Shown here: positions 13,740 through 41,669 of the stretch, one piece after another | Layout: each line of letters opens with the position of its first letter | How positions within the stretch are numbered: the stretch's first letter is position 1 | NCBI GenBank assembly: GCA_902728285.1 | Contig: CACVBU010001154.1 | Span: 2,804,631 to 2,868,630, forward strand | Length of the DNA stretch: 64,000 nt | Direction: 5' to 3' | Source of the DNA: Clytia hemisphaerica | Taxonomy: Eukaryota > Cnidaria > Hydrozoa > Leptothecata > Clytiidae | Made by a program: the position numbers and the translations under genes | Notes under the pieces: model-generated | Seen by the model: the letters and a program-made list of their open reading frames with translations, nothing else | Database searches by the model: none | Told to the model about the DNA's origin: nothing

Positions 13740-14137
13740 GCTTATTTTTTAATTATTTTTTTGAACATATTTTTCATGATTTTTTTAAATCTTTTGATTT
13801 TTCAAGCAAATTTTTTTTTATTTGTTTTATTTTCGTTTCCAATCTTTTTTTTTTTCGATGCGGAACTGTGTAATCTCTGAATCGACTGAATTGTTTGATT
13901 TTTAAATGAATTTTTATTATTTTCATTTCGTAGTTGATTGTTCTGATTTTTTTCATTTTATTTTGATTTTTCAGTTGATGTTTTTGCTTTTTTTTATTTT
14001 TTTTATTTGCTCATCGTGATATATCCGATCTTTTTGAAATTTTAGTTTCTTAGTTGATTGTTTTGATTTTTTGATTTTTAGTTGATTTTATTGATTTTTT
14101 TCGTTATTTTTCCGATTTTTTTATTATTTTTTTTCTT
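13740..14137. repeat. T-rich low-complexity tract
   Basis: About 400 bp of degenerate TTGATTTTT / TTTATTTTT words, very T-rich on the + strand, ending directly at the 5' break of the LINE that follows. No coding potential. The tract may have been the insertion site or may have expanded afterwards. Confidence 0.6.
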
Positions 14138-18060: not shown

Positions 18061-18946
18061 GCTTGAATAGTGCTTTATTATTATTTACTCATTTCTTTCC
18101 GTATATAAGGTATAAAGTACAATAGAGGGTTCCTGTTTATAATTTATAAAGAGTACACCTCGTACTAAAATAAATACTAAAAACATAATATAATACCGTT
18201 GATATTGATTTCAAGACTTGATTTTGATTTTCAAAAGTGCTAAAAGAACTAACAAGAGCTTGGAGTGCTTCAAAAAAATGTTTAACTTGGATGAAAAGAT
18301 CTTAAAGAAAGTCGGCCAAAAACGTTTGTTTTCCTAGAGAGGTAATATTCAAAATAAATAATTTATTTAGAAAAATAAATAACTATGCCGTAAGTTTATC
18401 AAAGGCCTATCAAAACAAAGTTATTTCAAAGTTATGGACAACTTGAAGAGCTTGATTGAATTTAAAAGTTGTGGAATCAAGAGTTGCTAATTAAACTTGA
18501 AAATATGTTGTTTCAAAAGTTAAGATGGTGGGTTTAGTAGAGTTTCTCAAAATTTGATTTCAAACATGCTAGATAAATAATAGAAATATAAAATTGTCTT
18601 TTCAATTTGTATTATTTCTTAACCGCTCGAAACTTTCTTTTGGGTTCTCCTTTTCAACCATGCGCTTGTCAGTTGTATTGAGGTATGCAAAGCTTGTTTT
18701 GCATTCCTACGTTACTTGTGATAAGCCTATTGTTTTACGAAGATCCCTAGTTTAAGGTGGCTTGAAGAGTAGTTTCTTAAAAGACTAGACTTATAACTCG
18801 ACTATGAGGAAATGGGCTCCTATCTTTTCGGCAATATATATACTACTTGCCTTACGTGGATTTGAAAAAGAGTTGAAAAAGTTTTAAAGTTTTTCGAGAA
18901 AGTTTATTGTTTTTTAAGGTCTTAATTTGCTTAACTAGAGAAAATT
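18061..18946. other. AT-rich spacer between two LINE copies
   Basis: No ORF or exon that I can support. The 3' untranslated part of LINE copy B probably occupies the right-hand end, but I cannot place its boundary. Confidence 0.5.
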
Positions 18947-21515
18947 TTAAGCTAAAGTGAAAAAACTTCGGACGACATGTGCTGTGCCTAACAGCGTTAT
19001 TTTTTGGGCCTCTGAAATATTGAATTTATTTTGAGTCAAACCAAGATTTCCTATATCATCACTCAATCCTTTGTGTATCACACCAGTTGCACCAATTATG
19101 ATTGGGACGATTTTAACTTTATTCAGGTTCCATAAAGTTTTTAATTCTACTGCCAAGTCGGTGTAGTTTCGGATTTTCTCAATTCGTTTACGGGGTATGT
19201 TGTAGTTGGACGGAATTGCGATGTCAATGATCAGTGCTTCTTTCGTTTGTTTGTTTAGGAAGACGATATCGGGTTTATTGTGGTCGATTTGGTGGTCGGT
19301 CTGGATGGAGAAGTCCCAGAGAATTTTGGTGGATTCGTTTTCCTCCACTGGATGTGGTTGGTGTTCGTACCATGGGGTCCGTTCTTGCTTTAAATCGTTT
19401 TCACGCATGAGAAGCTCGTGAATGTACTTGCACAAGTTGTTATGTCTTTGAAGATATTTTGTTGGTGCAAGTACTGTGCAACCTGATATAATGTGGTGGA
19501 TAGTCTCTTTTTCTCGGTTACATATACGGCATGTTTCTTCGACTTGCTGATGGAAAATTCGTCTCTGAATGTAGCGGGTAGTAACTGCTTGTTCCTGAAT
19601 CGCGCATATGGTGGCTTCTGTTGCGCGTTTCAGGGTTGACGATCGTATCCAGTCTGTCGTTAGGGTTTTGTCAACGTGCGGTTCGTCAAGCAGCTGGAAG
19701 TATTGTCCATGGAGGTTCTTGGCTTTCAAGATTTCAGATCTTGTTTCAATTCGTTTTATCTTGATTTTGCTTTTTCGTTGGCTTTTTGAAAGGATGGAAA
19801 GCTGCTGTATTTCGAGAGAGATTTCTTGGCTGTATGACTGGGCCATAGCGTGAATCGATTTTGCACCGCGGGTGAGTTGCCAGTTGGATAGCAAGGTCAG
19901 ATAGGGTTCGTTTGATGTTAGTAGGTAGGAGCTGAAGTTGATAATGCAGTTTTTGAAGTGGTCAACGATGTTGATAAGACCCCTTCCACCTTCTTTTCTC
20001 GGGAGGTAGAGTCTTGTTACGTCACTTTGGTTGTGCATCACGTGGAATGATTGCAAGACTTTCTCGTTTCGCGGTCGATGTTCTCTAGCTCAGTGATCGT
20101 CCAGTCCAGTACAGGAAAGCCATACGACAGAGCTGGGACGGCATAAGAGTTGATGGCGGATATTGTGTTGAGGCTGTTGAGTTCGCTTTTGAGTAGCATC
20201 TTCAGTCTTTTAAAGTACTCATTTTTGAGTGTTGATTTGGTGTATTTGTCAGTAAGTTGGTGTTCATTGAACCCGAGGTATTTGTATTGTTTGTTTTGGT
20301 CTAGGGTTTTTAGTATCTCACCATTGTCGAGTACGATGTTGTCGCTGTTCGTGATTTTTCCCCGTTTGATTGTCACTTTATTGCACTTTTCAATTCCGAA
20401 ATTCATCTGGATGTCTTCGCTGAATGTTTTGACCAGTTTGATTTGGTTGTTGAGTTGTTGATCATTCGCAGCATACAGTTTCAAGTCATCCGTAAAGAGT
20501 AGATGAGATATCGTTGTCTCTTTGTTAAATCGATAACCGAGTTTGCTTTCTTTTAGAAGCCATGATAGTGGAAGTAACGAAAGGATGAACAATGTACCTG
20601 ATGGGCAATCTCCCTGGTAGATTCCGGTGTTGATGGAAAATTTGTTGGTAGAGATCAGGCCAGTGTCGTGGTTGAGGGTGAGTGATGTTTGCCAATTAGT
20701 CATTGTGGATTCAAAGAAGCTGGTGATGGTTTTGTCGAATTTGTGAATTTTGAGTGTGTCGATGATCCAGTCATGCGGAACTGAATCATATGCTTTCTTG
20801 TAATCAATCCACGCTGTTGAGATGTTTTTCAGTTTGTTTTTGGCATTAACCATGATCAGTTTATTTATCATCAACTGGTCGATCGTGCCGAAGGTGTTGC
20901 TGGCATTTCCCTTTTGTTCAACGGGGATGATTGAGTTGGCTTGGATGTGGTGTAGCATTCTTGATGTAATGATGCTGGTGAGGATTTTATAAACGATGGG
21001 GAGGCAGGTGATTGGTCTGTAATTAGAGGGATTTCGAGTTTCGACTTTTTTTGGTACGAGGGTTGTTCGGCCAGTAGTTAACCACTGAGGGCAAGTTTCC
21101 GGGTTTTTAACGATTGAGTTCATGATTTGTGCGGTTTTGTTGTGGAATACTTTGAGTTTATTCCACCAATAATTCTGAATATTATCAATTCCTGGGCTTT
21201 TCCAATTTGCGAACTTGGAGGACGATTCAGCGATTTCTTTCGGTTCGATATCAGTGTATTCAGCTTGGATGATGTGATTGGTTGATCCTTTATACTCGTC
21301 TAACCATAATGCGTTTTTGTTGTACTCTTTGCGGTTGCCATACAACGGTTTCCAAAATTCTTCGATAGCTTCTTTTTCGGGTGGGTCAGAGATGGTAATT
21401 CGGTTCCCACGGAGTTGATCGTATAATTTGGAAGGTTTCTCGGTAAAGTCACGGTTTTGTTGAAATTGTTTTTGCCGTTTCTGATATCGAGAGAGTCTGT
21501 TGTTTATTATCTACA
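18947..21515 (-). mobile_element. R2/NeSL-like LINE with C-terminal restriction-like endonuclease, copy B
   Basis: The coding region runs from about 21515 to a stop at 18947. Reverse transcriptase: TTGRTTLVPKK, NPSNYRPITCLPIVYK, AWIDYKKAYDSVPHD (catalytic Asp), GIYQGDCPSG, and LLFTDDLKLY, where FTDD stands for the usual (Y/F)xDD. Then LRSSTLKRA-like WIRSSTLKRATEATIC, a CCHC knuckle (CRICNREKETIHHIISGC), and an endonuclease with KPDIVFLNK and LIIDIAIP, the PD-D pattern of the restriction-like nucleases of R2, R4, NeSL and HERO elements. One frame slip near 20050 fits a lost T in a T run. The frame stays open upstream to about 21515, where the element is 5' truncated before any N-terminal DNA-binding region. 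There are no rRNA genes nearby, so this is not an rDNA-resident copy. Confidence 0.9.
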
Positions 21516-22200
21516 TAAAAGATTATTTGTTCCTTGCCATGAAGCAGTGTTGTAAGGCTCTGATTGGTCCGTTTTACAGTTTATTAACAGATCATTTTTT
21601 TACAATCCCAAAAGGGAATTGAAAAAAATGAACTATTGGTTCAAAACACGTTTTTATTACATTAAGAAAAAATGTTTAAAGTTTAAGATCTCCATATTCC
21701 GAAAGTCAATTCCCAAGGGAACTCATAGTTCATCGTTTCTATTTCAATTTGTAAGATTCATTTTTTTATCAAGGGAACAAATGAGTTAAATAATTTGTTT
21801 TGAAAGGAACTTTTTGTTCATTTACAAGTATTCCCTTGCTGGTGCTATATGCACAAATAGTTCCTATTCTACAACGATTCAATGAGAGTAAAGAGAACCA
21901 AACCAATTGGGAACTCTCTGATCTCATTTTAATAGTCATTTCAACTATTTTTTAAAGAACTAATTGTATATTTAAATTTAAAAAACATTTTAATCAAAGA
22001 ATACGGTATTTCACAGAATGAAATTAAAAGGATAAAAGGAACTTCATTAAAATAGTGAGATAATTCCTTTTTTCTGAAATTACGTCAAATTATCTAGATA
22101 ATTAGTTCATTTAAGAGAGGATCGATGCGATCTCTCAAAAAGGCAAGTTCACTTTTTAAATGCTTATTTGGAAAATATGGAGAAATGACGTGTGTACGCG
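21516..22200. other. Spacer upstream of the recombinase gene
   Basis: No gene seen. It contains several short inverted or near-palindromic words built on TTCCC/GGGAA (for example AATCCCAAAAGGGAATT near 21603 and ATTCCCAAGGGAA near 21710). These could be the remnant of a small inverted-repeat element or binding sites. The promoter of the 22201 gene must lie here if the gene is transcribed alone; I see no certain TATA box. Confidence 0.4.
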
Positions 22201-23832
22201 ATGAAGAGAACTTTCAGCAAGAAAGATTGGGAAGGCGTTGAAGGAGCAAGTCCCAAGGCTAAACGGCTCAAGCTGACTCCAAATGCAGCTGGCTTGTTTG
22301 TCTGTCCTGTTTCCAATTGTGACAGCGATAGCTACCACAGTCAAAGAGGTTGCAGAAAACATGTTGTGACGAAACACGGATGGTACTTTTATTTTGAAAG
22401 TAAACCTAATGTTGATGAAGTTTTCACAGATAAAATCTATTCTTCAAAAAGAGCAGTAATCAGAAATAAAACTTGGAACATCTCATCTTTCTCGGACAAA
22501 TGTCAACTGGCTAAAGACTTTATATTTTGGATATGCAGTGCTGGAGGGGGTGGCAAAGATGCAAATCAAGCGCTTCAAATTTGCCGAAAAATAATGAAGT
22601 TCTGTAAATTTTGTTTGGAAAATTTGGAAGAAAATTTTGAATTGACTTTGACTTTAATGGAATATTGTGTTGGATCTACGGAATATATAGAGAGATTTCT
22701 GAGATATTTGGAGAATGAATGCAAACTTGGCAAACCCGGGATGATATCTTACCTACAGTCATTGAGTCATTGCCTAGACTTTTTGAGATGCAGGGGTATA
22801 CGCGCGGACAAAATAGCGATATTTCTGACCAGCGAAGTTTTTCTCTCTCGTGCCAAACAATGTCTAAGAAAGAAGATGCGGGTCGAGTGGAACACTTTAC
22901 TTTCAATCGAGCATTTGGAGAGTATCAATTGCTGGGCGTCACTTGCAGATTTACAAAGAGTGATACCTTTTCACGAGGACAGGTATAACCAAGTTGTAAA
23001 TTTATCAAAGATCAATGGTCACATTGCCCACGATCTTTCTTTCGCGTCATCTTTCGTAGTTTCTTTGTTGTTTTTGAATGTTAAAGGTAGCAGGCCAATG
23101 ACATTTCAATTTCTTACTGTGAAGATGGTTCTTACTGCTATGAAAACAGGAATGATTGATCAAACACACTTTAAAACTGAAGAACAATACGGTTTTGATT
23201 CACTTGTTTTTACTGATGACGTACTTTCGAAATTGAAAAATTACGTAGATCATGTTAGACCACGATTGAATTCAAAATGTGATTTTTTACTGGTCTGTAA
23301 AAACGGAAACCAGCTTAAAAACCTGGGAGATATATTTGGAAGAATGGTGTATCAAGCGATTGGAAAGTATATAACACCAACCCGTTATAGGCAGATCATC
23401 GAAACCGCTAGCGCTGAGAACCTGACGCTAGAAGAACAACGTATTGTCAGCCTCGACCAGAAACACACATCCAACGTTGCCAAGGTGCACTATCAAAAAC
23501 GAAAGTCACAAGATGTTGCAAGAAAAGCGAACGACTGTATGGACAAGTTGATAAAAGTTACATCGGCCAAGGAGAAAGATGTAAAAGAAGATAAAATCGT
23601 TCTTCATGTAATCGAAAAGGAAGAAATGAAACAAGTGGCCTCCGAAAAAAAGCCAAGAAACAAGAAGAATGCTTTTACTACTGAAGAGGACAACTTTCTG
23701 TTAAAGGGTATAAAGAAGTACGGACAAGGAAAATGGTCTAACATCTTAAAAGACCCAGAGTATAAATTTCACCCTTCAAGAAAAAATTCTACATTGATGA
23801 TGCGGGCAAAAGCAAGAAAATTTATTGAGTAA
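22201..23832 (+). CDS. Intronless C2H2 - tyrosine recombinase - Myb/SANT protein
   Basis: 543 aa from the ATG at 22201 (an in-frame GTG lies 9 bases earlier, but ATG is the natural start). Seen: a basic NLS-like PKAKRLKL (18-25); a C2H2 finger at C35, C40, H54, H59; a helical region at 100-230 resembling a core-binding domain; a catalytic-like region with R298 (GSRPMTFQF), candidate K325, T-x-x-R ending at R397 (TPTRYR), H422 and Y431 (VHYQKR); and a Myb/SANT-like C-terminus at 487-540 (FTTEEDNFLLKGIKKYGQGKW). The spacings R298-R397 (99), R397-H422 (25) and H422-Y431 (9) fit XerD (R148, R247, H270, Y279). Only the first His of HxxR is replaced, by Thr394. Inference: a DNA-binding recombinase derivative (Crypton-like or domesticated), possibly still catalytic. 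The related gene at 988-9882 has many introns, so this copy may be a retrocopy or belong to a mobile element. No terminal repeats were found. Confidence 0.8.
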   Translation: MKRTFSKKDWEGVEGASPKAKRLKLTPNAAGLFVCPVSNCDSDSYHSQRGCRKHVVTKHGWYFYFESKPNVDEVFTDKIYSSKRAVIRNKTWNISSFSDKCQLAKDFIFWICSAGGGGKDANQALQICRKIMKFCKFCLENLEENFELTLTLMEYCVGSTEYIERFLRYLENECKLGKPGMISYLQSLSHCLDFLRCRGIRADKIAIFLTSEVFLSRAKQCLRKKMRVEWNTLLSIEHLESINCWASLADLQRVIPFHEDRYNQVVNLSKINGHIAHDLSFASSFVVSLLFLNVKGSRPMTFQFLTVKMVLTAMKTGMIDQTHFKTEEQYGFDSLVFTDDVLSKLKNYVDHVRPRLNSKCDFLLVCKNGNQLKNLGDIFGRMVYQAIGKYITPTRYRQIIETASAENLTLEEQRIVSLDQKHTSNVAKVHYQKRKSQDVARKANDCMDKLIKVTSAKEKDVKEDKIVLHVIEKEEMKQVASEKKPRNKKNAFTTEEDNFLLKGIKKYGQGKWSNILKDPEYKFHPSRKNSTLMMRAKARKFIE

Positions 23833-24045
23833 CTTTGAAATAAAATTTAAGAAAGTATTTGAAAAATTGTATTTAAAAAAAATTAAATTAGGTATATGTG
23901 AAGTTAGAAGATTTTCTGCATCCTTTTGCTTCACTAAAATTACATTTGGTAAAATTCTAAAAACCTTATTCTCTCTAATCCCTATATCTTTAAGAAAACT
24001 TGTACTTTCAAACAAAAAATATTTGAATTAGGTATATTAGAACAT

Positions 24046-25845
24046 TGAATATCCTTTTAGCAGACACTTTGAGAATCTTATCCCCTCTTATCCCCTGCTT
24101 GTCACTCGTTATCACTGCTTATCCGTCTTATCCCTTAATTCTGAGGTGTAAAGTTTATCGGACATTGAGCATACTTTTCGCGGACACTTTGAAAACCTTA
24201 TCCTCTCTTATCCCCAGCTTGTCACTCGTTATCACTGCTTATCCGTCTTATCCCCTAATTCTGAGGTGCAAAGTCTTTCGGACATTGAACATACTTTTCA
24301 CGGACACTTTGAGAATCTTATCCCCTCTTATCCCCTGCTTGTCACTCGTTATCACTGCTTATCCGTCTTATCCCCTAATTCTGAGGTGCAAAGTCTTTCG
24401 GACATTGAACATACTTTTCACGGACACTTTGAGAATCTTATCCCCTCTTATCCCCTGCTTGTCACTCGTTATTACTGCTTATCCGTCTTATCCCCTAATT
24501 CTGAGGTGCAAAGTCTTTCGGACATTGAACATACTTTTCGCGGACACTTTGAAAATCTTATCCCCTCTTATCCCCTGCTTGTCACTCGTTATCACTGCTT
24601 ATCCGTCTTATCCCCAAATTTTGAGGTGCAAAGTCTTTCGGACATTGAACATACTTTTCGCGGACACTTTGAAAATCTTATCCCCTCTTATCCCTTGCTT
24701 GTCACTCGTTATCACTACTTATCCGTCTTATCCCCTAATTCTGAGGTGCAAAGTCTTTCGGACATTGAACATACTTTTCGCGGACACTTTGAAAATCTTA
24801 TCCCCTCTTATCCCCTGCTTGTCACTCGTTATCACTGCTTATCCGTCTTATCCCCTAATTCTGAGGTGCAAAGTCTTTCGGACATTGAACATACTTTTCG
24901 CGGACACTTTGAAAATCTTATCCCCTCTTATCCCCTGCTTGTCACTCGTTATCACTGCTTATCCGTCTTATCCCCAAATTTTGAGGTGCAAAGTCTTTCG
25001 GACATTGAACATACTTTTCGCGGACACTTTGAAAATCTTATCCCCTCTTATCCCCTGCTTATCACTCGTTATCACTGCTTATCCGTCTTATCCCCTAATT
25101 CTGAGGTGCAAAGTCTTTCGGACATTAAACATACTTTTCGCGGACACTTTGAAAATCTTATCCCCTCTTATCCCCTGCTTGTCACTCGTTATCACTGCTT
25201 ATCCGTCTTATCCCCTAATTCTGAGGTGCAAAGTCTTTCGGACATTGAACATACTTTTCGCGGACACTTTGAAAATCTTATCCCCTCTTATCCCCTGCTT
25301 GTCACTCGTTATCACTGCTTATCCGTCTTATCCCCTAATTCTGAGGTGCAAAGTCTTTCGGACATTGAACATACTTTTCGCGGACACTTTGAAAATCTTA
25401 TCCCCTCTTATCCCCTGCTTGTCACTCGTTATCACTGCTTATCCGTCTTATCCCCCAATTCTGAGGTGCAAAGTCTTTCGGACATTAAACATACTTTTCG
25501 CGGACACTTTGAAAATCTTATCGCCTCTTATCCCCTGCTTGTCACTCGTTATCACTGCTTATCCGTCTTATCCCCTAATTCTGAGGTGCAAAGTCTTTCG
25601 GACATTGAACATACTTTTCGCGGACACTTTGAAAATCTTATCCCCTCTTATCCCCTGCTTGTCACTCGTTATCACTGCTTATCCGTCTTATCCCCTAATT
25701 CTGAGGTGAAAAATCTTTCGGACATTGAACATACTTTTCGCGGACACTTTGAAAATCTTATCCCCTCTTATCCCCTGCTTGTCACTCGTTATCACTGCTT
25801 ATCCGTCTTATCCCCTAATTCTGAGGTGCAAAGTTTATCAGACAA
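24046..25845. repeat. Strict 120-bp satellite, 15 units
   Basis: Fifteen consecutive units of exactly 120 bp with no length change, differing only by point substitutions. Each unit contains CGGACACTTTGAAAATCTT, then TATCACTGCTTATCCGTC. Because 120 is a multiple of 3 and two frames lack stops, two overlapping ORFs of over 500 codons run through it. I regard these as by-products rather than genes. Variant bases recur three units apart (CCCCAAATTTTGAGG at about 24612 and 24972; GACATTAAAC at about 25121 and 25481), which points to a 360-bp higher-order unit. The edges carry a distinct variant (AAAGTTTATC). Related to the array at 34508-36028, in opposite orientation. Confidence 0.95.
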
Positions 25846-26094
25846 TTTTTAAAGTTTTTTATAAGAAAACATTTTCGAAATGTAAAACTGTTCAGAGTTT
25901 TCAAACTTCTAGTGCTTATAAAAAAATGTTAGATGAAAGGAAGGTTTTTGTCGTTGTATTCTTCTAAGTTTGAAAATTGGGTACTAGAATAACTGAAATA
26001 CCGGAAAAATTAACTTGATAATAAGCTTGAGTTAACTTTTTCTTTTTTCGAATGATAAAATAACACGATTTACAAAATGGAATGAAACTTTTGT

Positions 26095-26713
26095 TCAGAA
26101 ATCTTCAGAAGATGTTTCTCCAGATGATATGTCGACTACTTCTTTACCCTCAGGAAGAACTCTGTCGATGTCGAATTCAATTGAATCCGATTTTGATCTT
26201 GGTCTTTTTGTTGTTTCGGTCTCACTGCCACTGGTGACGACAGTTTCAGTTGCAGCATTGCAACACCGTTTCAGACTGAGTCTTCTTCTTGGTATGGTTG
26301 CCCCTTGTGAAGAAGACTTTTCGATGGAGGGTGTAGTCTCTTGCTCACTCAAGTCAGATATTGATGTTTCAGAAATTCTGTCTGGTTGCTCTACAGGTGG
26401 TGGAGGGATAGGAGGAGGAGAAGGGTTGACAGTACAATTCGCATCGGAATTCTCGTTGCCGCTGGTTTGGTCCTCTCTCGGTGGCTGATATGACGTGATC
26501 TCTAACAATGGATCTTCCTCTGATTGGTTTGCGGTTGATGTGGAAGGCGAATTGGTTTCCTCTCTCGGTGGCTGATATGACGTGATCTCTAACAATGGAT
26601 CTTCCTCTGATTGGTGTGCGGTTGATGTGGAAGGCGAATTGGTTTCCTCTCTAGGTGGCTGATTTGACGTGATCTCTTTCAATGGTTCCTCCTCTGATGG
26701 GTTTGCAGTTGAA
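26095..26713 (-). pseudogene. Detached C-terminal part of the helicase last exon
   Basis: An open frame to the stop at 26095 with no ATG start of its own. It encodes a Ser/Glu/Pro-rich tail with about three repeats of a 30-residue unit (EITSYQPPREETNSPSTSTA and variants), a proline run (PPPIPPPP) and an acidic end. The first residues match the end of the host part of the helicase exon at 31711 (PREETNSPSTS versus EEINLPST), and the frame is the same if the intervening element is removed. It is therefore best read as the 3' end of the helicase gene cut off by the insertion at 26721-31703. It may still be expressed if splicing bypasses the insertion. Confidence 0.8.
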
Positions 26714-26720
26714 GTTGAAG
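26714..26720. repeat. Target-site duplication GTTGAAG, left copy
   Basis: GTTGAAG directly precedes the left inverted repeat; the second copy is at 31704-31710. Seven bases match exactly and the next base on each side differs. The site lies inside helicase coding sequence. Confidence 0.8.
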
Positions 26721-29384
26721 CATCGACCTCTAACGGATGGACGGATAACTCATTGTTTCAAAAACAAAGCGCGACTTTATCCTTTGTGCAGGGAGCGCGT
26801 TGCCGCCAAAAATTTGAATTTTGGAGATTTTCAACATGGCGACGAAAAAAAATTTTCCGACATATCCTGCATAACAACCACTGCAGCTGAAATATCTTTC
26901 TTTGTGCTTATGCTATCACTATGGAGTTTTTTTCAGAGGATTCAAAGATTGTTGTTGTACCAATATCCAGAAGGAATAATTCTCTAACTTTTTATTCATC
27001 GAGACAAGCCAACCGACACTTGCACCTTTGAAAACCCGACAGGCTCTCATTTTGAAATTGTGGATGTCAGAGATGGAGCAATATCTTGGTTTTCCCTGAA
27101 TGAATAGGATTGCTGCTTCGAATGGTGATAAATGAAGAGTTGCTCGAAAGAATTGAATTGGATCCACACCTATTCATGGTCTAGGGGCTCTATTCATTTT
27201 ATTTGAAAATCATGCTGAGACAGACCGAAATGACGTCGTTACTAGGCTGATTTGCCTCTATCATCTCCTGCAGAAACTATGAAAGTTGGAACTTGAATTT
27301 TGTGTATCCATTCTCCTATCTAAAGCTAGAGATTGTATTCAATGAACAAATAAACTCAGACAAAAAAATGGAAATGGAACATGATGCTTTGCAAAACATA
27401 TCTTATACATTTGCTGTGTAAGAACTGCTGCCAAAACACGATAAATCACTCTGACTCAGGAGTCAACTCTACAGCACACAACCGTGCGTTGAGCTAAAGA
27501 AAAGTTAATAAATCCATTGCAGTTGCATACCTCAGATAGCAGAGGGGTGAGTTTGTGTTTATTTCTACCCTATCTTGTACAATGTTACATTCTTTGGTCA
27601 TGTTTTAGCTGTGATCAGTGGTCCTCTGTCCTCAGTGGTAGTGCTTTACTGCTTTTAGCACCTATATCATATTTATTTTTTAATGAAATTTAAAGTATTT
27701 TCCAACTCTATAAAGTACCACAATAACACTAAAAATAGTGGAAGAGGGAGGCAGATTTCAGGTTGTCAATGGAGGAATTTTAAGCTACTCAAAGTGAACC
27801 TGCCTCTGAAAACCACTAAATATAATCTTTTAGTCATCTTATTGTTTGATACACACATATCCTAATAAATTTTTGTTTCTTTTTTTCTACAGACTGACAG
27901 AAAGACTGGGATTTACGAACTAGAATCGTTGGATCCTTGTATGACACAATGAGAATCTTAACCAATAAGGCCACAAATGCTGGATATCAATTATTATGAT
28001 TTCATGATTTTTGTGTGAACAATTGGTGTGTATGATACAAGCTTCTGAATAAAACTAAATCAAATTTTTATCAGAAATCTTTTAACCCAAGTCAGTAATA
28101 TTGCTAGGAAACTATGAGAGTACAACACTAACAGATTAAGATGAATGAAAAGATAATATGCTAATTTTAAAGATTAATTTATGGACAATGAATATAAATG
28201 TGAAATGACAAGGATATGATATTTGCATTATCGCCCTACCCTTTGGTTAGACAATCGGGGTCGAATTGCACTACAGTGAAATGATTTTTCTTTGTGAGAC
28301 TGCTTGATATTTTTCTATTTTTTATCGATATATATTGAGATTTATAAATTGTAACGTAGAATTTTATTGAAAAGTCCTTCCTTGAATTTCTTGAGCAGAT
28401 TTGTAACTCTCTTAGTTAAAATTAAACGTATATACCCGGGGTACTAGGTTTGTGAGGTGACGGGTAAGTCATCTTTTCTCAAAATTGTTGATTTTCGTGA
28501 TTTTTGGACCCTTACAGAGACTCAATTTTCTTTTTAAAGGTTTTACCTCTTTGAGAGACTTATGAGTGTGTGAAAAAGCAATGACTTGTTGAAAAAGGGA
28601 CCCTTATGGCTTGCACATACTCGGCATCCATTTTGCCTAAATAGCCCCCCCCCCCTTCGGATTAAACACAGTTGGCCTCTCCAGTTTTCAAAATCTGTCA
28701 GCTATTCAAATTGTCTGCTTACATACTTTGGGATGATCTCAATCGAAATTTAAAAATTTTTTCTCTTAGTTGACAAAATTGTCATGCCCCTGTTATCTTA
28801 AATACTTTGGCTGAAAAATTTCTGAGTTTAAGTTATAAAGTAGTTATAAATTTGATAACTTTTTACGATTTTAGAAGGCCAAGTGATCATGTTTTCACCT
28901 TTTCCACCCTTTTTGTAATAAGAAATTTAACACCTAGTGGTGTTAATTCCAGGGAATAAATAGAATTTTTATTTGTCTTTAAATTGTCATTATTTTTACT
29001 TAGGTTTGTTGTGCCAGTTAACCATTGTCCTGGTAAATATATTTCATTCTTAAAAATAAAATAAAAAACCATGAAATTTGAGCTTATTTCTCAACAGGTT
29101 TGATAAGAGGCTTCTTATTGTATGCTTATGCTTGCTACCTTTTAAATCAATTTTTAACTTAAGTAACATTTCTTCATATATTCACCAAGCCTCGATTCTG
29201 GAGCTTATTTCATATACAAGTTTATGATAGTACCAAAATTTGGGTAAACAAAAAAGTTTCAAATCAGTTCAAATGCATGAAAGTTGAATTTGATATCCTT
29301 TTTATATTAAATTATTAAAAATTTTAGCTTATGTTCAAAAATGGATATATGTTATTTAGCCTGTATAATATTGTTCTGACCAGG

Positions 29385-29541
29385 TATTCATGATATGCAA
29401 CACTGCAATGTCTTCTTACATTACATCATGGACCCAATAGCTCATTGGTTGAAAGTGACGTAAAAGCAGTCAATACGTCACTTTCAACCAATCAGCTATT
29501 GGGTGGAACGGAAGACATTGCAATGGTGCATATCATGAATA
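29385..29541. mobile_element. Palindromic (foldback) MITE, 157 bp
   Basis: Two arms of about 77 nt: TATTCATGATATGCA... at the left and ...TGCATATCATGAATA at the right, meeting at GTGACGTA / TACGTCAC around an 11-nt loop near 29460-29472. Mismatches are scattered and no ORF is present. The transcript would form a long hairpin. It lies inside the larger element at 26721-31703. Confidence 0.8.
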
Positions 29542-29901
29542 ATTTTGAAGGTTTGATTGAATATAATCTACTGAAAAATTAGAGAAATGTTAATCGAACT
29601 CGTCCTATATAAAGTAACATTACCCAAAAATATTCAAAGGGATTGTCGCCATTCTGAGAAAAAAGACGACATTGATTGGTCTTTAAAAAAATAAGATGAT
29701 ACACATGATTTAAGTCATACATGAAGCTGTAATTTATTGTCAGTTACAATATAAGTCTTATTTCAAATCATACAATTTACAATTACACGTGAAGAAAAAT
29801 TTAAATTTGGAATAAGATGCAAACAATTTATTGAACTTTTTTCTTTAAAAAATAAACTTTAGATCAAGAAAAAATGGAAACATTTTTCAGTCCAAATTAT
29901 A

Positions 29902-30320
29902 CATAGTGTGCACCCCCCCTAAATTAAGGGGGGGTTTTGTTGATTTGGGTTCAAAATCTTTAGGTGGGACTTCCTATTTTTTGGATTTCAGGGGGGGGGG
30001 GAAACAGGATTAGGTGGGACCTGATTTTTTAAGGTGGGACTAAGGTGGTTTGGTTGTAAAATTGAAACATCTCATCAACATCAATCAGTGATATATAACT
30101 TTAGTAGTTACCTTTTACTATTGAAACCTAGTGGATAATCTTGTACATATGACCTGTATTATACTTGAAAGAGGTTCTGCTGGGAATTCAAATTTTTCAA
30201 AATCTTGGTGGGGGATATACTTAGTGGTGGGACCAAGCATGATTGATTCTAGGTGGGGGTTTTAATGTGTGCTGGGACCTTATTTCTTTGGTGGGACCTG
30301 GACCCCCCTTGCACACTATG
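29902..30320. mobile_element. 419-bp element with 11-bp TIR and G-rich interior
   Basis: The ends CATAGTGTGCA (29902-29912) and TGCACACTATG (30310-30320) are exact inverted repeats, flanked on both sides by ATTATA (29896-29901 and 30321-30326), a likely 6-bp target duplication. The interior repeats GGTGGGAC about six times on the + strand and includes a run of G near 29991-30001. No ORF. Nested in the 26721-31703 element. Confidence 0.65.
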
Positions 30321-31665
30321 ATTATAATAAGCCATAGTAGAAAAAAAAAACCTTCAATTTCAAAAAAATACAATACAAAGCCATTTTCTGCCACTTGAAA
30401 TAATTTGAACTAGCTTAATTAACTTAATTTCTTTTTAGTAAGATAAAAAAACAGCTAAGACAGCTAGAATTATATATAATCAACAGTATTCAAGGATTTC
30501 TGCCCCTTTTGTTGTGGAACCATAATAAGTGTTTCTATCTATCAGCAAACAAATATAGTACCAAAAGCCTGATGACGATTTTTATTTTTACTGTGCATAT
30601 TATCGGTGTTTTTTTCTTCGAGGAATGTCGGTCAAGCAGTTCATAACTGTGTATTTTACTAGGATCTTCCACCACACTAACATGGTAACCGAACTCAATC
30701 TTGTCGTTGTCTATATACAGCTATATGTGGAAAATGGAGTTGCACGTTAAATTCAGTTTATTGCCAAAACGTTTTATTTGAAATCCAACAAGATAATTTT
30801 TCTTCTTGTATGACAATATGGTTAAATCCAGGTGAGAAGTTGATCATAAGCTCACCACAACTAGTAGACAAGCATTATTTTCACACTATGCCACCACCAC
30901 AGACTTCGTATGTTTCATCTCAACACTCTACTTTCATAAAAAATAACATTTTTTCCAGCTCGTATTCTGTGTGTATGGACATGTGTAAACAGGATGGACA
31001 CCTCTGTTCGCTGTGAGGATGAAGAACCTGAAAATGAAGACAAAATTTTATGAGTGAAAGTGTACTGTTAGCAGAAGCTGTGATATTATAGATGGAATTC
31101 CTGATTTGTTGAAGTTTCACATATATTATATAATAGTATTTATCTCAATGAGATAGAAGGAAGATTGATCATGCATGACACCTTCGCAAATCAAATGTAT
31201 GTAAACATTCAGATGTCCCTTCAGATGTTTAGATATTGGAGTGACGATCTGTATTTTATATTTATATCATATTAAGTTTATGATACAAAAATATGCTAAT
31301 CTATCAAGTTAATTTTATAAAAAAGAACACAGATCAGACGAAAAATAAACAAAACATCTATCTACCTTTCATAATTGTATTAGAAACTGGGTTTGAAGAT
31401 GATCATGGTACTCTCTTTTACTGGAACAAAATTTGATGATTGAAAATTCCATACAATTTTCAGCTTCTTTCCTTCATGAGCTCCTTTCCCTGTTTCCTTC
31501 ATGGGCTCCTTTCCCCATTTCCTTCATTTTCAAGTTGTTTTTTATTTTTCTACCCGACATCCAAGAAAATTACATCAACTGGGTTATCGAGACCTCGAAT
31601 TTTTCTGATGCAATGATCACGTGATCATTCTATTGATTCGGGAATAATAAAACCAACGCGCTTGA

Positions 31666-31703
31666 AAACAATGAGTTATCCGTCCATCCGTTAGAGGTCG
31701 ATG
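31666..31703. repeat. Right 38-bp terminal inverted repeat
   Basis: Exact inverse of 26721-26758. Read on the minus strand it gives the helicase ORF three extra codons and the TAA stop at 31693-31691, so the end of the element supplies the present stop codon. Confidence 0.85.
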
Positions 31704-34700
31704 GTTGAAGGCAAATTGATTTCCTCTGATTGTTGTTCGTTTCGCTCTGCATCGTTGGACTGGTCCAAACATTCTTTCAGTGGTGAGACTGTTGGTAGTT
31801 GGAGCTGTTGTGGCGTTGAGGGCTCTTGTTCGGCTTCAGGATCGAAGCTTGGAAACGAGCAATTCATGAGGTGGTAATCGAACCATGGTCGTTCGTAACC
31901 CTTGCGTACCAGCCACGCATCGTATACTGTGTCAGGGCCATCCCAGAACACGCGAGCTCGGCGCCGGAACATTGACACTGCCTTGTCAGAGATGTGCAGA
32001 GCGTCCCAACATCCTTCGTTGTTTGATGCAAGCTCGACCACTTTTTGCACGTACTCTTCGTCACACTTTTCCGATGCGTTGTCGAAAAGTGGCGTGTCCC
32101 AAGAGAGATCTTCGTATAACACGCCTTCAACACGGTCTGCCTCCATGATCGCGTGATCAATTGCTTCGACTGTTGCACTGTCTTTGGAGTTGCTGGGCGA
32201 TGATGGCACGTCTGCATCTACTGTCCGGACATTGTTGGACGGGATGCTTGGGGTCTGGCTCAAAGAAAACTCCGCGTTTTCGTCTGCCAACATCAAATCC
32301 ATCGGGCTGAAATCAAAATCGTTGAAGACAGCTCCCATCCCTTTGGCAGCACCCGCGCCATTCCATCTGTGTGTTGGTGTGTCGAAGATTGGTTCGTGTT
32401 TGAGCTGTTCGGCCAAGTAATGGAACACCTCCATGCAGTTGATACGGAGCCAGCCTGAAAAAAACGACAATAATGAACATATAGTCGGTGAAAGAATGGG
32501 ACGATAAAATTTTATTGAAGCAGCAATGATATCCTTATTAGATACTTTGTTTTCATTACTTAGCTGACTGTGCAGGCGCAAAAAGAGACTTTCGATTGTA
32601 AATATGATCAATAATTAGCTCACCTTCGACCGAAGGGTCTTTTCGCTTAAGGGAAGATGTCTGGAACACGTCAAGCCGCTTTCGAATCGCTTCATTGTCG
32701 ATTTCATTGCCAAAGTCTGGGTATACGTTAGTGGTAATGAAAAATCCTGAATTATAATTGACTCTCAGGCCTTCCTTGTGCTTTTGAGGAAGGAAGTTCA
32801 TGCCACCTGAAGATCAAAGAAGGAAAAAGTGCCATTATACATTAGAAGAAAAAAAGAGACAAATTAAACTTGAGTAAACTCTAGTAAACGAGACAAATGA
32901 AATTCTGCGTACTAGCTTAAAGGCCTCGAACGCGCAGAATCAAAAAGGTAGGGCAAGACCACAAGGAAAGTGATGAAGAGACGAGGAAGCTACAAAAAAA
33001 GAAAAGTACCGCTCACCCTGGAGAACTCGTTTGGCGTCTTCACAAGAGAGGCTGTCTGGCGTCCACTCATCCATCATCACAATCTGAGTTTGGTCGTCGA
33101 TTAGTGCAGCTGAGAAGCGTCCGTCGTTCATGACCCCAGCTATGTAGCGAGCTGGAATGATGCCCTTGAAGGGAGAAAACCAACTGGTTTTGGCCGAGTC
33201 CGCAGGGCCCACTAAACACAATTTCGTCTCCTTGTGAGGGAACTGTTTGTGAACAAGCAACTGGTAATACTTCTTGTAGAAGCGCTTCCTGACCACAGGG
33301 TTTCCGAACGAGTTTTCAACGCCCTTGATAAAAGGTTCGGGATACGGTCTCTTGTTTGCGTCATATGCGTACTTGACAAATGCTCTCGGGGAACCTGGAC
33401 GAGAAAAAAATAGAGAATTTTTCTTGAATCACTAAATCCCCTTCAACCAAGTGGAACAAAACCAGCAACATAGGCAAAATGACTATTCACTTCCGAGAAG
33501 CACACGCTAGACTCACAAAAACATTAGAATTCGCCAAATCAGAAAAAGAAAATTTAAGTAGGTTTAATTCAGATTTTGCTTACCCTTCAAATCACGAGGT
33601 TCAAGCTCGAAACACTTCTTGGCAATGTTGAAGCACGTTCCATGAGGTGTCACCTCGATGAAGTTGTAGTCGATTGAAATTGGCTTTATTATTCGGCACG
33701 TTTTTACAGAAAGAAGACTGATAATTTGCTGAACATGCTGTGATATGGTATTTGCAACGTCGTCATTTCCGAGAATGAAATGAATGAAATCGTGCACGGA
33801 TGAGCAATAGACGTAGGTGAATCTCGATTGTGGAACTTTCTTGTACACGCTACCGTCGTACAAACCATAATGAAAAGTGTTCATGTACACTTTGACGGAT
33901 TCGATACTCTGCATAAACCGACTGACTGGTCTCAAAGCCGCGACCACTGGCTCTTCTGTGAAGTAAAAAAAAATGAAGACACTTTAAATTGATGCAAGCA
34001 ATGAACGTAAAAAAACAACAACTTAGCGCCAGGACACTTTGGTCAGTAAAATGCCAGAAAACAAATTGGAAAACTTCTCACCTGCAGAAGTGAAGTCAAC
34101 AAGTTTCATTTCGAGCAAACCTCTGCAAGACTGGACAGCGTTCTTCAGTTCTTTCGCAACATTCGAATCCATCGACTTGGTGAGCCACAATGATGTCAGA
34201 TGTTTTGATGAGTAGCGAACACCTTCCCCCATCACGACTGTCTCCAGGTTAATTCCTTCTCGTTCAGCTTCAGCTTTCACAAACTTTATTTGAGACTTGG
34301 CAAAGTGGTGTAATAGCGTTTCATTGTTGTGGTCCTTTAACACAATGTACAGTGATGCCACGAAACTGTCATTGATAGAACGAACACCTGAAAGAGAATT
34401 ATAGACCATAAAAAAATAACATTGAGATATACAGGGGAGAATAGATTGTCGAGGTGTCCGTAAAAAAATAAAAAAGCGTCCGAAAAATCCTTTCATTTTA
34501 AAAACCTGTGACAAGGCGGATAAGCAGTGATAACGAGTGATAAGCTTGTGACAAGGAGGATAAGAAATCTCAAAGTGTCCGTAAAAAATAAAAAAAACGT
34601 CCGAAAAATCCTTTCACTTCAAAAACCTGTGACAAGGCGGATAAGCAGTGATAACGAGTGATAAGCTTGTGACAAGGAGGATAAGAAATCTCAAAGTGTC

Positions 34701-37123
34701 CGTAAAAAATAAAAAAAACGTCCGAAAAATCCTTTCATTTCAAAAACCTGTGACAAGGCGGATAAGCAGTGATAACGAGTGATAAGCTTGTGACAAGGAG
34801 GATAAGAAATCTCAAAGTGTCCGTAAAAATAAAAAAAAAACGTCCGAAAAATCCTTTCATTTCAAAAACCTGTGACAAGGCGGATAAGCAGTGATAACGA
34901 GTGATAAGCTTGTGACAAGGAGGATAAGAAATCTCAAAGTGTCCGTAAAAAATAAAAAAAACGTCCGAAAAATCCTTTCATTTCAAAAACCTGTGACAAG
35001 GCGGATAAGCAGTGATAACGAGTGATAAGCTTGTGACAAGGAGGATAAGAAATCTCAAAGTGTCCGTAAAAAATAAAAAAAACGTCCGAAAAATCCTTTC
35101 ACTCGAAAAACCTGTGACAAGGCGGATAAGCAGTGATAACGAGTGATAAGCTTGTGACAAGGAGGATAAGAAATCTCAAAAAGTGTCCGTAAAAAATAAA
35201 AAAAACGTCCGAAAAATCCTTTCATTTCAAAAACCTGTGACAAGGCGGATAAGCAGTGATAACGAGTGATAAGCTTGTGACAAGGAGGATAAGAAATCTC
35301 AAAAAGTGTCCGTAAAAAATAAAAAAAAACGTCCGAAAAATCCTTTCATTTCAAAAACCTGTGACAAGGCGGATAAGCAGTGATAACGAGTGATAAGCTT
35401 GTGACAAGGAGGATAAGAAATCTCAAAGTGTCCGTAAAAAATAAAAAAACGTCCGAAAAATCCTTTCACTCGAAAAACCTGTGACAAGGCGGATAAGCAG
35501 TGATAACGAGTGATAAGCTTGTGACAAGGAGGATAAGAAATCTCAAAAAGTGTCCGTAAAAAATAAAAAAAACGTCCGAAAAATCCTTTCACTTCAAAAA
35601 CCTGTGACAAGGCGGATAAGCAGTGATAACGAGTGATAAGCTTGTGACAAGGAGGATAAGAAATCTCAAAGTGTCCGTAAAAAATAAAAAAACGTCCGAA
35701 AAATCCTTTCACTCGAAAAACCTGTGACAAGGCGGATAAGCAGTGATAACGAGTGATAAGCTTGTGACAAGGAGGATAAGAAATCTCAAAGTGTCCGTAA
35801 AAAATAAAAAAAACGTCCGAAAAATCCTTTTACTTCAAAAACCTGTGACAAGGCGGATAAGCAGTGATAACGAGTGATAAGCTTGTGACAAGGAGGATAA
35901 GAAATCTCAAGTGTCCGTAAAAAATAAAAAAAACGTCCGAAAAATCCTTTCACTTCAAAAACCTGTGACAAGGCGGATAAGCAGTGATAACGAGTGATAA
36001 GCCTGTGACAAGGAGGATAAGAAATTGAAAGCGACCTTAAATAGAAAAAAACCAGAAATACTGAAAACGTGCGTAAAAGACAAGGTTGAGATGTATAAGT
36101 TTCTTTTTTTTTCAGATTCAAAATTAATTTTCTTTAAAAAAGACTTAAAATCAAATCTAAAAAAAAGGAGAAAAAAATGAAATAATCCACGTGCTCGACC
36201 CAATCCCTTTCTTAAAAATATTTTCAAAATATCTATCAAGGTTCAATTTTTAAGATTAAAAAGTCATTTACCACGTGCACGCCCCAAAGCCCCTTCCTTG
36301 AAAAAAACATTTTAAATGTCGACCTTATGAAATAAAGCTCAAACTTTTGAAAAAATCTTTCTGAATTCAATTTCTACTAAAATCTAAAACAAGTCCACCA
36401 CGTGCTCGGCCCAATCCCCTTCTCCGAAAAAAATTTAAATATCAAAATTATTTTTCAAATTCAGTTTAAAAAATTCATACAAAGTCAATTTTTACTAAAA
36501 TCAAATCAACCCCCTTGCTCGGTCCAATCCCCCTCCCTAAAAAAAAATCGACCATCTTGAAAATGCAAAAAGTTTTTTATCAAATCAAAGGGAAGGTTAT
36601 TCAAAAGTAAAAAAAATGTAAACTTACCACGTCCTTTAACGGCTTTGCAGTGTACAGTCTCGAGTCCTATTCGTCTTGCAATTTTGGTTAAATAACTCTC
36701 ATAAGCTTCGATACCAATCTCAGGCCAATCGAACATCACCCAGAAAGATATTCCTGCGATGGCTTGGTGCTGATCATCTTTCGTTTGGTTATATAACGCT
36801 GTTCCACATGAAAAAAAACCAGCAATTGTTTGTTCAGATGAAAATTTTTCTTCCAAAAGTTGCCTTGCCTGCCAAACTTCCATATTTGATGGTGTTGGTA
36901 GCATTACTCTAACGGCTGCTGCCTGATAGTAACGAGACACATGCTGAACAACGAATGATTTTAACGCACATTTAATCAGCGAGCATCGAAGTTCCTTTTT
37001 TGGATTAATAATGTCTTGTTCCTCTTGTTGTTGAGAAGCATTTTCAACGTGTCTCTGTTCCATGTTTTCTACCACAGTTGTGTTTAGAAAGGAACAAAGT
37101 TTCTCTTTTATGGTTTCAGTCAT
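31691..37123 (-). CDS. Superfamily 3 helicase gene, six exons, interrupted at the 3' end
   Basis: Exons: 37123-36628 (ATG), 34387-34082, 33955-33584, 33394-33017, 32806-32624, 32454-31691. All five introns are GT-AG and phase 1, and the frame is intact. As it stands it encodes 832 aa. The first 390 residues have no motif I can name. Helicase motifs: Walker A GPADSAKTSW (about 454-463), Walker B IVMMDEW (about 496-502), an LQGG segment, motif C YNSGFFITTN (about 535-544), then IRKRLDVF with a likely arginine finger. This is the A-B-B'-C order of SF3 helicases of parvovirus NS1, papillomavirus E1 and CRESS Rep proteins. The P-loop has Ala where Gly is usual before KT, which may weaken ATP hydrolysis. 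No HUH nuclease motif was seen. The tail is Ser/Glu-rich. Intron 1 (36627-34388) holds the satellite at 34508-36028. The last exon is cut by the element at 26721-31703, and the original end lies at 26713-26095. Confidence 0.85.
31704..31710. repeat. Target-site duplication GTTGAAG, right copy
   Basis: Pairs with 26714-26720. It encodes part of the helicase tail (minus-strand CTTCAAC within CCT TCA AC). Confidence 0.8.
34508..36028. repeat. 120-bp satellite array, 13 units, in helicase intron 1
   Basis: Thirteen units averaging about 120 bp, anchored by GACAAGGCGGATAAGCAG. Lengths vary by a few bases, mostly in A runs and an AA insertion (AAAAAGTGTCC). On the minus strand each unit holds GGACACTTTGAGATTTCTT, then CTTATCACTCGTTATCACTG, matching the array at 24046-25845. 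The other half of the unit differs (GGATTTTTCGGACGTTTTT). Long minus-strand ORFs across it are by-products of the period. Confidence 0.95.
36180..36560. repeat. Degenerate ~110-bp tandem repeat with CACGTG boxes
   Basis: Four copies near 36188, 36272, 36397 and 36506, each with a G+C-rich core like CCACGTGCTCGGCCCAATCC followed by CCCTTC and an A-rich stretch. Three retain CCACGTG (an E-box hexamer). They lie in helicase intron 1 close to the first exon. Confidence 0.65.
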
Positions 37124-39296: not shown

Positions 39297-41669
39297 GTCC
39301 GGCAGTCTCTACACGGGCATGATGTAGGCCTCCACTGCTTAATCTTTTCCTTAAAAATACTAAGATCAACTATATCTCTATACTCATCCGGAATTAATTC
39401 CCAAACTTTTGGCCCTAAAAATGAAAGTGACTCTGAACCGTGAAAAACAGAGTTTATTTCTCTTGATCTGAAGTAAGGCGTTTTGCGATTTACTTTGATA
39501 TTTTCATCATGTTTGAAAATTTCTTTAGTTAATCTGATCTGATATTTTTTTTACATTGAAAAGTTCTATTGCTAACAACTGAAGATTTTTATGGTGGAAT
39601 TTGATGGCACCGTCTTTTTCTAAAAGCTGCTCAAAAGTAGATGTATGATCAGAATACACTATCCTCAAACATCTTTCGTGGAGGTGATTTATTTTTTTGA
39701 TCTAGCCTGCGAACATGAAACATCCAGACAAGCGAACAATAATTGAATTGACTTCGAAAGAAGGCATTCATGAGCCTTTGCTTTTTCTTTTGATTCATGT
39801 ACGGTGCTACCCTCGCAAGTGCACTGATTTTCTGGCTAGCTTTCTTATAAATCGTGTTAATATGTGGCTCAAAAGTCAGACAGTTGTCAAAAGTTAATCC
39901 TAGGATATTGCCTGAGTTGCTGTTAAAGATGCGTTCATTCTGTATAGTAATGAAGATTTCTTTTCTGGTATTGTTAGCTATCAACTCAGACTTGTCTGCA
40001 TTTCCTTTCATTTGATTTTGGGTTATCCATTCAAAGATGATAGCAGCTCCATTCGAGAGCTCCTCACCAACCTGTTCCCAAGAATCAGCTATCACAAAAG
40101 GTGTTGTATCGTCTGCATAATTCAGTACATTTCTATTTTCAAGAAAGTAGAACAAATCTCTCATGTAGATGTTAAATAGTAGCAGCCCTAGAATGGATCC
40201 TTGGGGAGCACCTACTTTAACATTATGCCAGGTACTGTAATGGTCGCCAATTTTCGTTCTTTGCTTTCTATCTGATAGATAGGCTGCTATGAGACCTAAG
40301 GCACTCCTTGAAAATCCGTATGCTTCAAGTTTAGCAATCAATAGTTCGTGCGAGATGCAGTCGAAAGCTTTTGATAAGTCAATGAGTAACGCTGCAAACT
40401 TTTTCTTTTCAACTGTAGCTTTCTTCCAAATTTCAGTCATGACTAAAAGTGGAGTTTGTGTACTCATTCCTTTTCTATATCCAAATTGTCTATTGCTCAA
40501 AATATTGTTAAAGTAGGTTGAGACTTGGGTATGTATGACTTTTTAATATATTTTTGACAGAACTGGAAGGATACTCACCGGTCTGAAGTTGCTCTTGTCA
40601 TTCTTTGAACCTTTTCTCTTATACACAGGTGTTAAATCGGCAAGTTTCAATTCTTTTGGAAAAGAGTTTGACTCGAATGACGCATTTATTTCTGAGCATA
40701 AAAACTCGGAAAACATATCACAATATTCCTTTATGATTTTCACTGGAATATCTGAACTCGACTGTGATTTTCCTTGAACTAAGTCCTTAATGATTTTCCC
40801 TACTTCCTCTTTCGTTGTTGGTATAAAAGAAAATTTATTTAGATACTCAGTTTTCTTGATTTCAGTGACACTTTTGTGTTGTCTATATTTCTGAATACAA
40901 ATTTCAGTATGATTATTTGTTTCGTCAAATGCAACATAGGGAGGCTCAGGCAAGTCTAGTTTTGATATTATTTGGCCATAATAGTCATTGAATATTTGAG
41001 CTATCTGCCCGGGGGGGGCACTCGATCTGAAATCGACCATACGTTCGGCCCAAAATTTGGCTTCTAAAATCGGACCCTTACAGTGCAGTGAATTTCCATG
41101 AAAAATCATACCCTTACAGTGCACTTTTTCAAAATTTCTCGCCCGTAAGGGCGAAATTTTTGCAATTTTCCAAGAAAATGTGGAATTTTTCCTCCAAAAT
41201 TGACCAATTTTGTGATAATTTTACCAAAAAATTGGCCTTTTACCAAAATTTCCTACCCTTACAGTGCAGTTCAGTGCAGTCTTGTAATTTCCTACCCTTA
41301 CAGTGCACTAACTGAACTATGAAAAACCTACCCTTAAGGGCCGAACGTCTGGTAGGTCATTTACCTTGAGTGCCCCCCCGGGGCTATCTGTTTCTCGTCA
41401 TTTGTGATCTTTTCTTTATCCACTAAGGTATAACTCTTATTGTTTGAACCTTTATTTGAAAACAGTGGTTGTACAGTTTTCCAAAACTTTTTGTTATCAG
41501 TTATGTTGGGATCTTTGAGGTTGGCAAAGTAGTCTTTCTTAGTCCTCCTCAATAGCGATAAGCAAAAAATTTTTTGTCTGTTGTATTTTGTTTTGTTTTC
41601 TTGTGTTTTATTGGAAAGTCGTGCGCAATTTATTATTGTTAATGAAATGATTGCTCGGTCAGAGTCCAT
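39297..41669 (-). pseudogene. ORF2 of the CR1/L2-like LINE: linker, RT and Cys-rich tail
   Basis: Segments: 41669-41383 (KKFWKTVQPLFSNKG linker); then, after the insertion at 41008-41382, QIFNDYYGQIISK in the same frame. Further RT parts are KSNFRPVSILPVLSKIY, FGYRKGMSTQTPLLVM, LLIDLSKAFDCISH (catalytic Asp), GAPQGSILGLLLFNIYMRDL and LNYADDT (catalytic pair intact). There are frame breaks near 40540 and 39660. The tail near 39450-39295 gives SLSFLGPKVWELIPDEY and the CPCRDC end. GAPQG replaces the common GVPQG and GLLLFN replaces GPLLFN, both ordinary drift. Confidence 0.85.
41008..41382. mobile_element. 375-bp TIR element with 8-bp target duplication
   Basis: The ends CCCGGGGGGGGCACTC and GAGTGCCCCCCCGGG are inverted repeats, and partial symmetry continues inward to ACGTTCGGCCC. 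Flanked by GCTATCTG at 41000-41007 and 41383-41390. Removing the element and one GCTATCTG restores the LINE reading frame (NDEKQIAQIFNDYYG), which proves the boundaries. The interior repeats CCTACCCTTACAGTGCA-like words. No ORF. An 8-bp duplication is typical of hAT elements and some others; the C/G-run ends are unusual. Confidence 0.9.

Follow-up and report, generated by a model that had tools for sequence, protein, structure and literature searches.

Within a 64,000-nt stretch of the Clytia hemisphaerica genome (contig CACVBU010001154.1, positions 2,804,631 to 2,868,630; hereafter, the window), a 4,983-bp element with terminal inverted repeats (TIRs) lies at 26721–31703, inside the last exon of a spliced, helicase-like gene. 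A first reading of this DNA, made from the sequence alone, implied that a transposon had broken one host helicase gene, and the question that the locus raises is whether this picture holds once other copies of both the element and the gene are considered. With a probability of roughly 0.87, we conclude that a non-autonomous element of the P superfamily, mobilized in trans, inserted into a copy of a two-gene element that carries a tyrosine recombinase (YR), a superfamily 3 (SF3)-like helicase and two inverted tandem arrays, and in doing so cut off the helicase tail. The "broken helicase gene" would then be one mobile DNA within another. What is established below comprises both elements and their ends, empty sites elsewhere, and relatives that share the left end and code for a transposase.

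Results

The insertion and its target

The ends of the TIR element match at 38 of 38 bp, with the left repeat (CATCGACC...) at 26721–26758 on the forward strand and the right repeat at 31666–31703 on the reverse strand. Each end is adjoined by a copy of the target-site duplication GTTGAAG, at 26714–26720 and at 31704–31710. In the window, the 20-bp end of the element (with up to 3 mismatches) is found only at the two termini, as against an average of 0.00 hits over 100 shuffles. GTTGAA also stands directly ahead of GTTGAAG at the target, but other copies show the empty site, and on this basis the length of the duplication was set at 7 bp. A coding tandem repeat with a period of 87 bp (29 aa; 26471–26720, reverse strand) contains the target in its third unit. 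This repeat belongs to the SF3-helicase-like gene, which is read on the reverse strand, with exons 1–6 at 31704–37123 and the separated C-terminal tail, adjoined by one copy of the duplication, at 26095–26713. When the seven exons are joined with one target copy, the 3,105 nt obtained are open to the final stop. With the element present, the frame runs three residues into it and ends ...STIDL-stop after 832 aa, the stop codon being supplied by the right TIR. The repeats, the duplication, the joined frame and the truncated product were all described in the sequence-only reading, and each was recovered on recomputation. The insertion is genuine, and its mechanism is an ordinary one.

Empty sites and intact relatives

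The TIR was absent at this site from the DNA of all five other helicase-gene copies inspected. These represent five of the six contigs with helicase matches of 87–98% identity, the match on the sixth (C80) stopping short of the site. Identity to the predicted joined flanks was 80/80 in C768 and C38, 79/80 in C714, where a frame change shortly past the site is followed by an assembly gap, 72/80 in C850 and 58/80 in C423; in the last of these, the site is followed by a different repeat unit. It should be noted that these are paralogous empty sites and no proof of an empty allele at the studied locus.

A protein search returned C. hemisphaerica relatives of the helicase with identities of up to 99–100%, and seven relatives (P0001–P0007) were compared; P0004, P0001 and P0003 correspond to contigs C38, C714 and C850, respectively. 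P0004 reads through the insertion point without a break. The name given to this protein by NCBI, 'serine-rich adhesin for platelets-like', perhaps derives from its low-complexity tail. A short C terminus common to the orthologs, which the sequence-only reading had offered as an argument against itself, was not what these relatives presented: P0002, P0004 and P0006 keep the same kind of tail as that at 26095–26713, with a common ending (LSLKRC...SIEFD...), while P0003 ends differently, P0005 and P0007 stop ahead of the tail and P0001 ends early beside an assembly gap. We take the last tail residues to resemble SUMO-interacting and nuclear-localization motifs. A precise insertion that truncates the frame, with near-identical, uninterrupted copies elsewhere in the assembly, is thus what the data present. 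Truncation would impair the helicase protein, and loss of function of the interrupted copy is likely. Since many copies of the unit exist, the insertion may be only weakly selected against.

A dispersed two-gene element surrounds the insertion

The interrupted gene is part of a dispersed two-gene YR element and not a lone host gene. The window copy of this host element occupies 21507–37115 (15.6 kb, or about 10.6 kb without the P-type insert), with a left end, TTATCTACATAAAAGATTATTTGTTCCTTG, at 21507–21536 and a right end, ...GAACAAAGTTTCTCTTTTATGGTT, at 37092–37115, both given on the forward strand. Similarity to C38, C714 and C768 starts at 21504–21507, and similarity to C38 and C714 stops at 37115–37116. 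A 30-mer of the left end (with up to 3 mismatches) was found at 18 places in the assembly and its reversed control at none. The left end matched at 18/18 positions in all 11 copies compared, seven of which had been chosen by the left-end search. No copy was chosen by its right end, which matched at 16/16 positions in three and at 15/16 in six of the ten copies whose right side was fetched; that of the C77 copy was not located. Besides the window, copies of the host element are found on C18, C38, C431, C460, C468, C714, C768, C770 and C775. Over 58 to 1,000 bp, the flanks of the different copies showed no similarity other than a simple repeat and one stretch common to C714 and C18. At the junctions of the nine two-ended copies, TT stands on both sides in all nine and ATGGTT on both sides in two.

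Among the matches listed, helicase-gene DNA is found at 87–98% identity on six contigs besides that of the window and at about 65–76% on many others, where some of the matches cover nothing but the arrays. Helicase exon matches lie within 15 kb of 14 of the 18 listed recombinase loci of at least 78% identity. As 39 of 51 candidates were scored for the recombinase and 79 of 632 for the helicase, these counts should be considered lower bounds. Recombinase homologs of 66% identity or less were excluded from the linkage count, none of them lying within 15 kb of a helicase match, and for the helicase matches on C850, C423, C140, C139 and C899, no recombinase match of at least 78% was among those listed.

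The extent of the host element also bears on the gene model. The exon chain that the sequence-only reading began at 37123 has GT/AG at the splice junctions of exons 1–6, but its ATG at 37123 lies outside the host element, beyond the end of the repeated unit at 37115, so that flanking DNA supplies codons 1 and 2 and part of codon 3. The NCBI models P0001 and P0002 begin at a residue aligned with residue 21 of that frame.

Genes and arrays of the host element

The first gene of the host element, an intronless frame at 22189–23832 on the forward strand, encodes a tyrosine-recombinase-like protein of 547 aa with a C-terminal Myb domain. Residues R302, R399, H426, H434 and Y435 are invariant in 42 of 42 aligned recombinase proteins, and the R-H-R-Y set is among them, the assignment of the individual residues being our own. 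The structural model has a mean predicted local distance difference test score (pLDDT) of 84; its best PDB match is XerD (E-value 7.4e-3, probability 1.00), and the C-terminal Myb part matches TRF1/TRF2 in the structure search.

The second gene would encode an SF3-like helicase. Its relative P0006 is named 'SF3 helicase domain-containing' in UniRef, Pfam PPV_E1_C matches P0002 at an E-value of 0.012, below the cut-off, and GPxDSGKTSW (Walker-like) and MMDEW are what we take to be helicase motifs. A profile search of solved structures returned no helicase match.

Helicase exons 2–7 are flanked by two tandem arrays that are about 73% alike and inverted relative to each other. Array 1 (24042–25844) contains about 15 copies of a 120-bp repeat and array 2 (34433–36031), within helicase intron 1, about 13 copies of a 121-bp repeat. 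CTTATC/GATAAG occurs 34 and 24 times per kb in the arrays, respectively, as compared with 2 per kb in the whole window. All frames of at least 110 aa in the host element belong to the recombinase, the helicase exons or the arrays, overlap or are antisense to helicase exons, or, in one case, lie in the nested element.

Other copies of the TIR element

A 24-mer of the element end (with up to 3 mismatches) was found at 21 places in the 417-Mb assembly and its reversed control at none. Both ends are intact in five copies, namely those of the window, C810, C294, C129 and C899, and the first three of these are flanked by exact 7-bp duplications, whereas the sequence-only reading had named a lack of such duplications at all copies as evidence against it. 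C869, the right end of which is without its last 4 bp, was left out of this count. In a sister family with ends CATGAACTTC... and a left end about 80% alike to that of the element, four copies were fetched, one of which (C207; 4,659 bp) was two-ended within the fetched stretch and has GAAATAT on either side, again an exact 7-bp duplication.

Compared over common sequence with the five other long copies (C129, C810, C899, C294 and C869), the window copy is 95% alike, and it carries two nested inserts that none of the five has. The first, at 29385–29541, is palindromic and resembles a miniature inverted-repeat transposable element. The second, at 29902–30320, recurs elsewhere in the genome, with 10 further places listed, and its empty site in C129 shows a 6-bp overlap. 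As this second repeat is present in the partial copy C393, long stretches of which are 95–96% alike to the window copy, it predates the studied insertion.

Superfamily and transposase source

In agreement with the sequence-only reading, which recognized no transposase in the window element, a Pfam scan of 18 of its 20 overlapping frames of at least 60 aa found none (frames 31617–31835 and 31695–31877 were outside the scan). The suggested search for an autonomous relative by means of the 38-bp end led to two transposase-bearing relatives, on C34 and C624, but to no intact autonomous copy. Both begin with the TIR, matched at 38/38 positions, and show 89% identity to the first 539 bp of the window element. 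Beyond its left end, C34 holds pieces colinear with the 926-aa Clytia protein P0128, from residue 11 to residue 922; one piece matches Pfam TNP-like_RNaseH_N (PF21787) at 3.3e-12, above the cut-off, and another at 6.5e-4, below it. C624 has the left end and most of the P0128-colinear pieces, mostly about 95% alike to C34. Both loci are decayed, with reverse-transcriptase-like frames, identified by eye, inside C34, and with broken frames in C624, where about 5 kb of additional sequence lies inside the gene. The TNP-like_RNaseH_N domain was found in all ten homologs scanned. The TNP-like RNase H fold is the catalytic domain of P-type transposases, and we chose this domain, rather than THAP, as defining membership of the P superfamily. 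On these grounds of sequence, the donor family can be identified from the left end, via C34 and C624, and the window element is assigned as a non-autonomous member of the P superfamily. No TIR copy was found in viral_contigs.

The N-terminal head of the transposases

The first exon of the C34 gene presents the pattern CxxC...HPxxxCxxC...H...CxxC, which is common, with small departures, to 13 aligned homologs; the last CxxC is missing from P0147 in the form in which it was cut, while P0130 has an imperfect one, together with FP for HP. Pfam RAG1_imp_bd scored above the cut-off in six of ten scanned homologs (P0132, P0133, P0135, P0136, P0149 and P0150), which include, besides P0133, proteins from Hydra, from Branchiostoma (lancelets) and from Apostichopus (sea cucumber). 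It scored below the cut-off in Clytia P0128 (E-value 0.00095) and in P0139, and was not detected by the Pfam scan in P0130 or in the N-terminally truncated P0142. The C34 exon alone matched RAG1_imp_bd at an E-value of 0.025, below the cut-off and not at the top of the list. The simpler pattern CxxC...PxxxCxxC is found in 27 of 100 homologs, several others being N-terminally truncated, as compared with 2 of 2,000 shuffles, while a simple THAP-like pattern is found in none of the 100, some of which are N-terminally truncated.

Other features of the window

Reverse transcriptase frames of the long interspersed nuclear element (LINE) type lie around the element, at 14075–15911, 17343–21510, 39649–41220 and 50090–52807. 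Pfam RVT_1 was detected in 14075–15022, 20038–21510 and 51416–52807, the other LINE frames being recognized by eye. The open reading frame at 4414–5031 has a weak phage-integrase match (E-value 0.083) and is perhaps a fragment of a second recombinase. A 200-bp tandem repeat (2.8 copies, 95% matches) occupies 111–660. Scans of the window for tRNA genes and against Rfam (at gathering cut-offs) returned nothing.

Discussion

The joint reading implies the following course of events. A cut-and-paste transposase, probably of the C34/C624 type, would recognize the common 38-bp ends, move 26721–31703 in trans and leave a 7-bp target duplication at insertion. The element would have landed in one copy of the host unit, inside its helicase gene, the frame of which would then stop in the inverted repeat, separated from the tail common to related copies. 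As for the host element, its recombinase may move it through an excised circle, and its helicase may drive replication from the arrays.

Several points weigh against this account and should be considered together. On the side of the TIR element, the copies on C129 and C899 have intact ends without a duplication. The right flank of C899 (L011) matches that of C294 (L012) at 99.8% over 900 bp, while the left flanks differ, so that C899 may be rearranged by ectopic recombination or misjoined in the assembly, which may explain its absent duplication; C129 has no explanation. No right TIR was found after the transposase in about 4 kb (C34) or about 1 kb (C624), and no copy with both ends and a transposase was seen among those examined. 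On the side of the host element, C714 (L051) and C18 (L065) have 27 of 29 bp just beyond the right end in common, with the remainder of their flanks unrelated, which is unexplained. In the recombinase model, stretch 427–436, with the presumed catalytic tyrosine, has a pLDDT below 50, the template modeling scores of the XerD match are 0.22/0.41, and Foldseek gave no match at an E-value of 0.001 or better. The helicase assignment draws on motifs, on the name given in a database and on a Pfam match below threshold, while the AlphaFold model of P0002 is poor (mean pLDDT 38) and gave no match at an E-value of 0.001 or better in a PDB search.

The YR and helicase unit could instead be a degraded virus-like integrant, kin to polinton-like viruses or virophages, rather than a Crypton-like transposon, as a YR integrase and an SF3 helicase are combined in such viruses. 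We regard this as improbable, given that the frames of at least 110 aa in the unit are accounted for by the recombinase, the helicase, the arrays, overlapping or antisense frames and the nested element, that no helicase relative was confirmed in viral_contigs and that the helicase gene is spliced. In the picture implied by the sequence-only reading, the TIR element disrupted a host helicase gene present in a single copy, which would suit the seven exons, the proper splice sites at exons 1–6 and the tail common to relatives. This picture is nonetheless very unlikely, as the helicase matches are dispersed over many contigs, the ends at 21507 and 37115 are fixed while the flanks differ, the recombinase is linked at most of the listed loci and the proposed start codon falls outside the repeated unit. 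Finally, a Dada origin, or one in another superfamily that makes 6–8-bp duplications, is hardly credible even though Dada makes 6–7-bp duplications, as PMC3706591 describes RNA-gene targets and Dada-U6 and Dada-U1 families without TIRs, while the window element has a 38-bp TIR, a protein-coding target and relatives with the same left end that carry P-type transposase exons.

We view the host YR and helicase element as a more novel object than the P-type insertion. The case also advises caution, in that gene copies should be counted before a transposon insertion in a spliced gene is called host-gene damage.

Comparison with known mobile elements

The window element resembles members of the P superfamily (P element, 1360 and Galileo) in that relatives with its left end have a P-type TNP-like RNase H transposase and in that its ends begin with CA, as do P-superfamily ends. 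It differs in that none of 100 homologs has the simple THAP-like pattern, an N-terminal zinc domain that matches Pfam RAG1_imp_bd above the cut-off in six of the ten scanned standing in its place, and in that the window copy itself is without a transposase. The sequence-only reading held that a 7-bp duplication fits no common family; this is not supported, since Galileo, a P-superfamily member with which the window element family shares this length, makes 7-bp duplications (PMC2775673 and PMC4168063) and the transposase-bearing relatives are P-type. A target duplication of 7–8 bp is expected in the P superfamily, and the exact 7 bp at three of five two-ended copies and at C207 fits this.

As for the head of these transposases, N-RAG-TP of Aplysia is described in PMC8355894 as a RAG1 N-terminal-like element, and the source of the RAG1 N-terminal region outside the Transib-like core is under discussion there. 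By description only, both cases place a RAG1 N-terminal-like domain in a mobile element, but here the domain stands before a P-type transposase. Our literature search, which covered titles and the starts of abstracts, found no paper tying the RAG1 N terminus to a P-type transposase. If the likeness is true, a RAG1-N-terminal-like region is found ahead of P-type transposases.

The host element is like Cryptons in that it has a tyrosine recombinase and appears to lack both long terminal repeats and any consistent duplication of the target. When its ends are joined with one TT, they give TCTTTTATG-GTTATCTA-CATAAAAGA, which suggests a recombination site whose 9-bp arms enclose a spacer of 8 bp, close to the YR-type sites with 11–13-bp arms and a 6–8-bp spacer reported in PMC3212892. 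According to that paper, animal Cryptons have no C-terminal domain and no terminal repeats were found in them; the word helicase is absent from its main text. Unlike animal Cryptons, the recombinase of the host element has a C-terminal Myb domain, and unlike Cryptons in general, the element has a second, spliced SF3-like helicase gene and two inverted tandem arrays. Cryptons have the recombinase as their sole or principal gene, whereas here helicase exons accompany it at 14 of the 18 loci listed. A literature search on the combination of YR and SF3 returned no paper, by which novelty is weakly tested. Our most far-reaching proposal, which we hold as a tentative one and rather doubt, is that the host unit represents a new class of eukaryotic mobile element, that is, a YR transposon that brings along an SF3 helicase for its replication as well as inverted, iteron-like arrays, that undergoes circle excision with a YR-type junction, episomal replication and reintegration, and into which a P-type transposon with a RAG1-N-like head landed. 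If this is true, chromosomal YR transposons would be linked to self-replicating episomes by a Crypton-like element that has a helicase of the replicative type.

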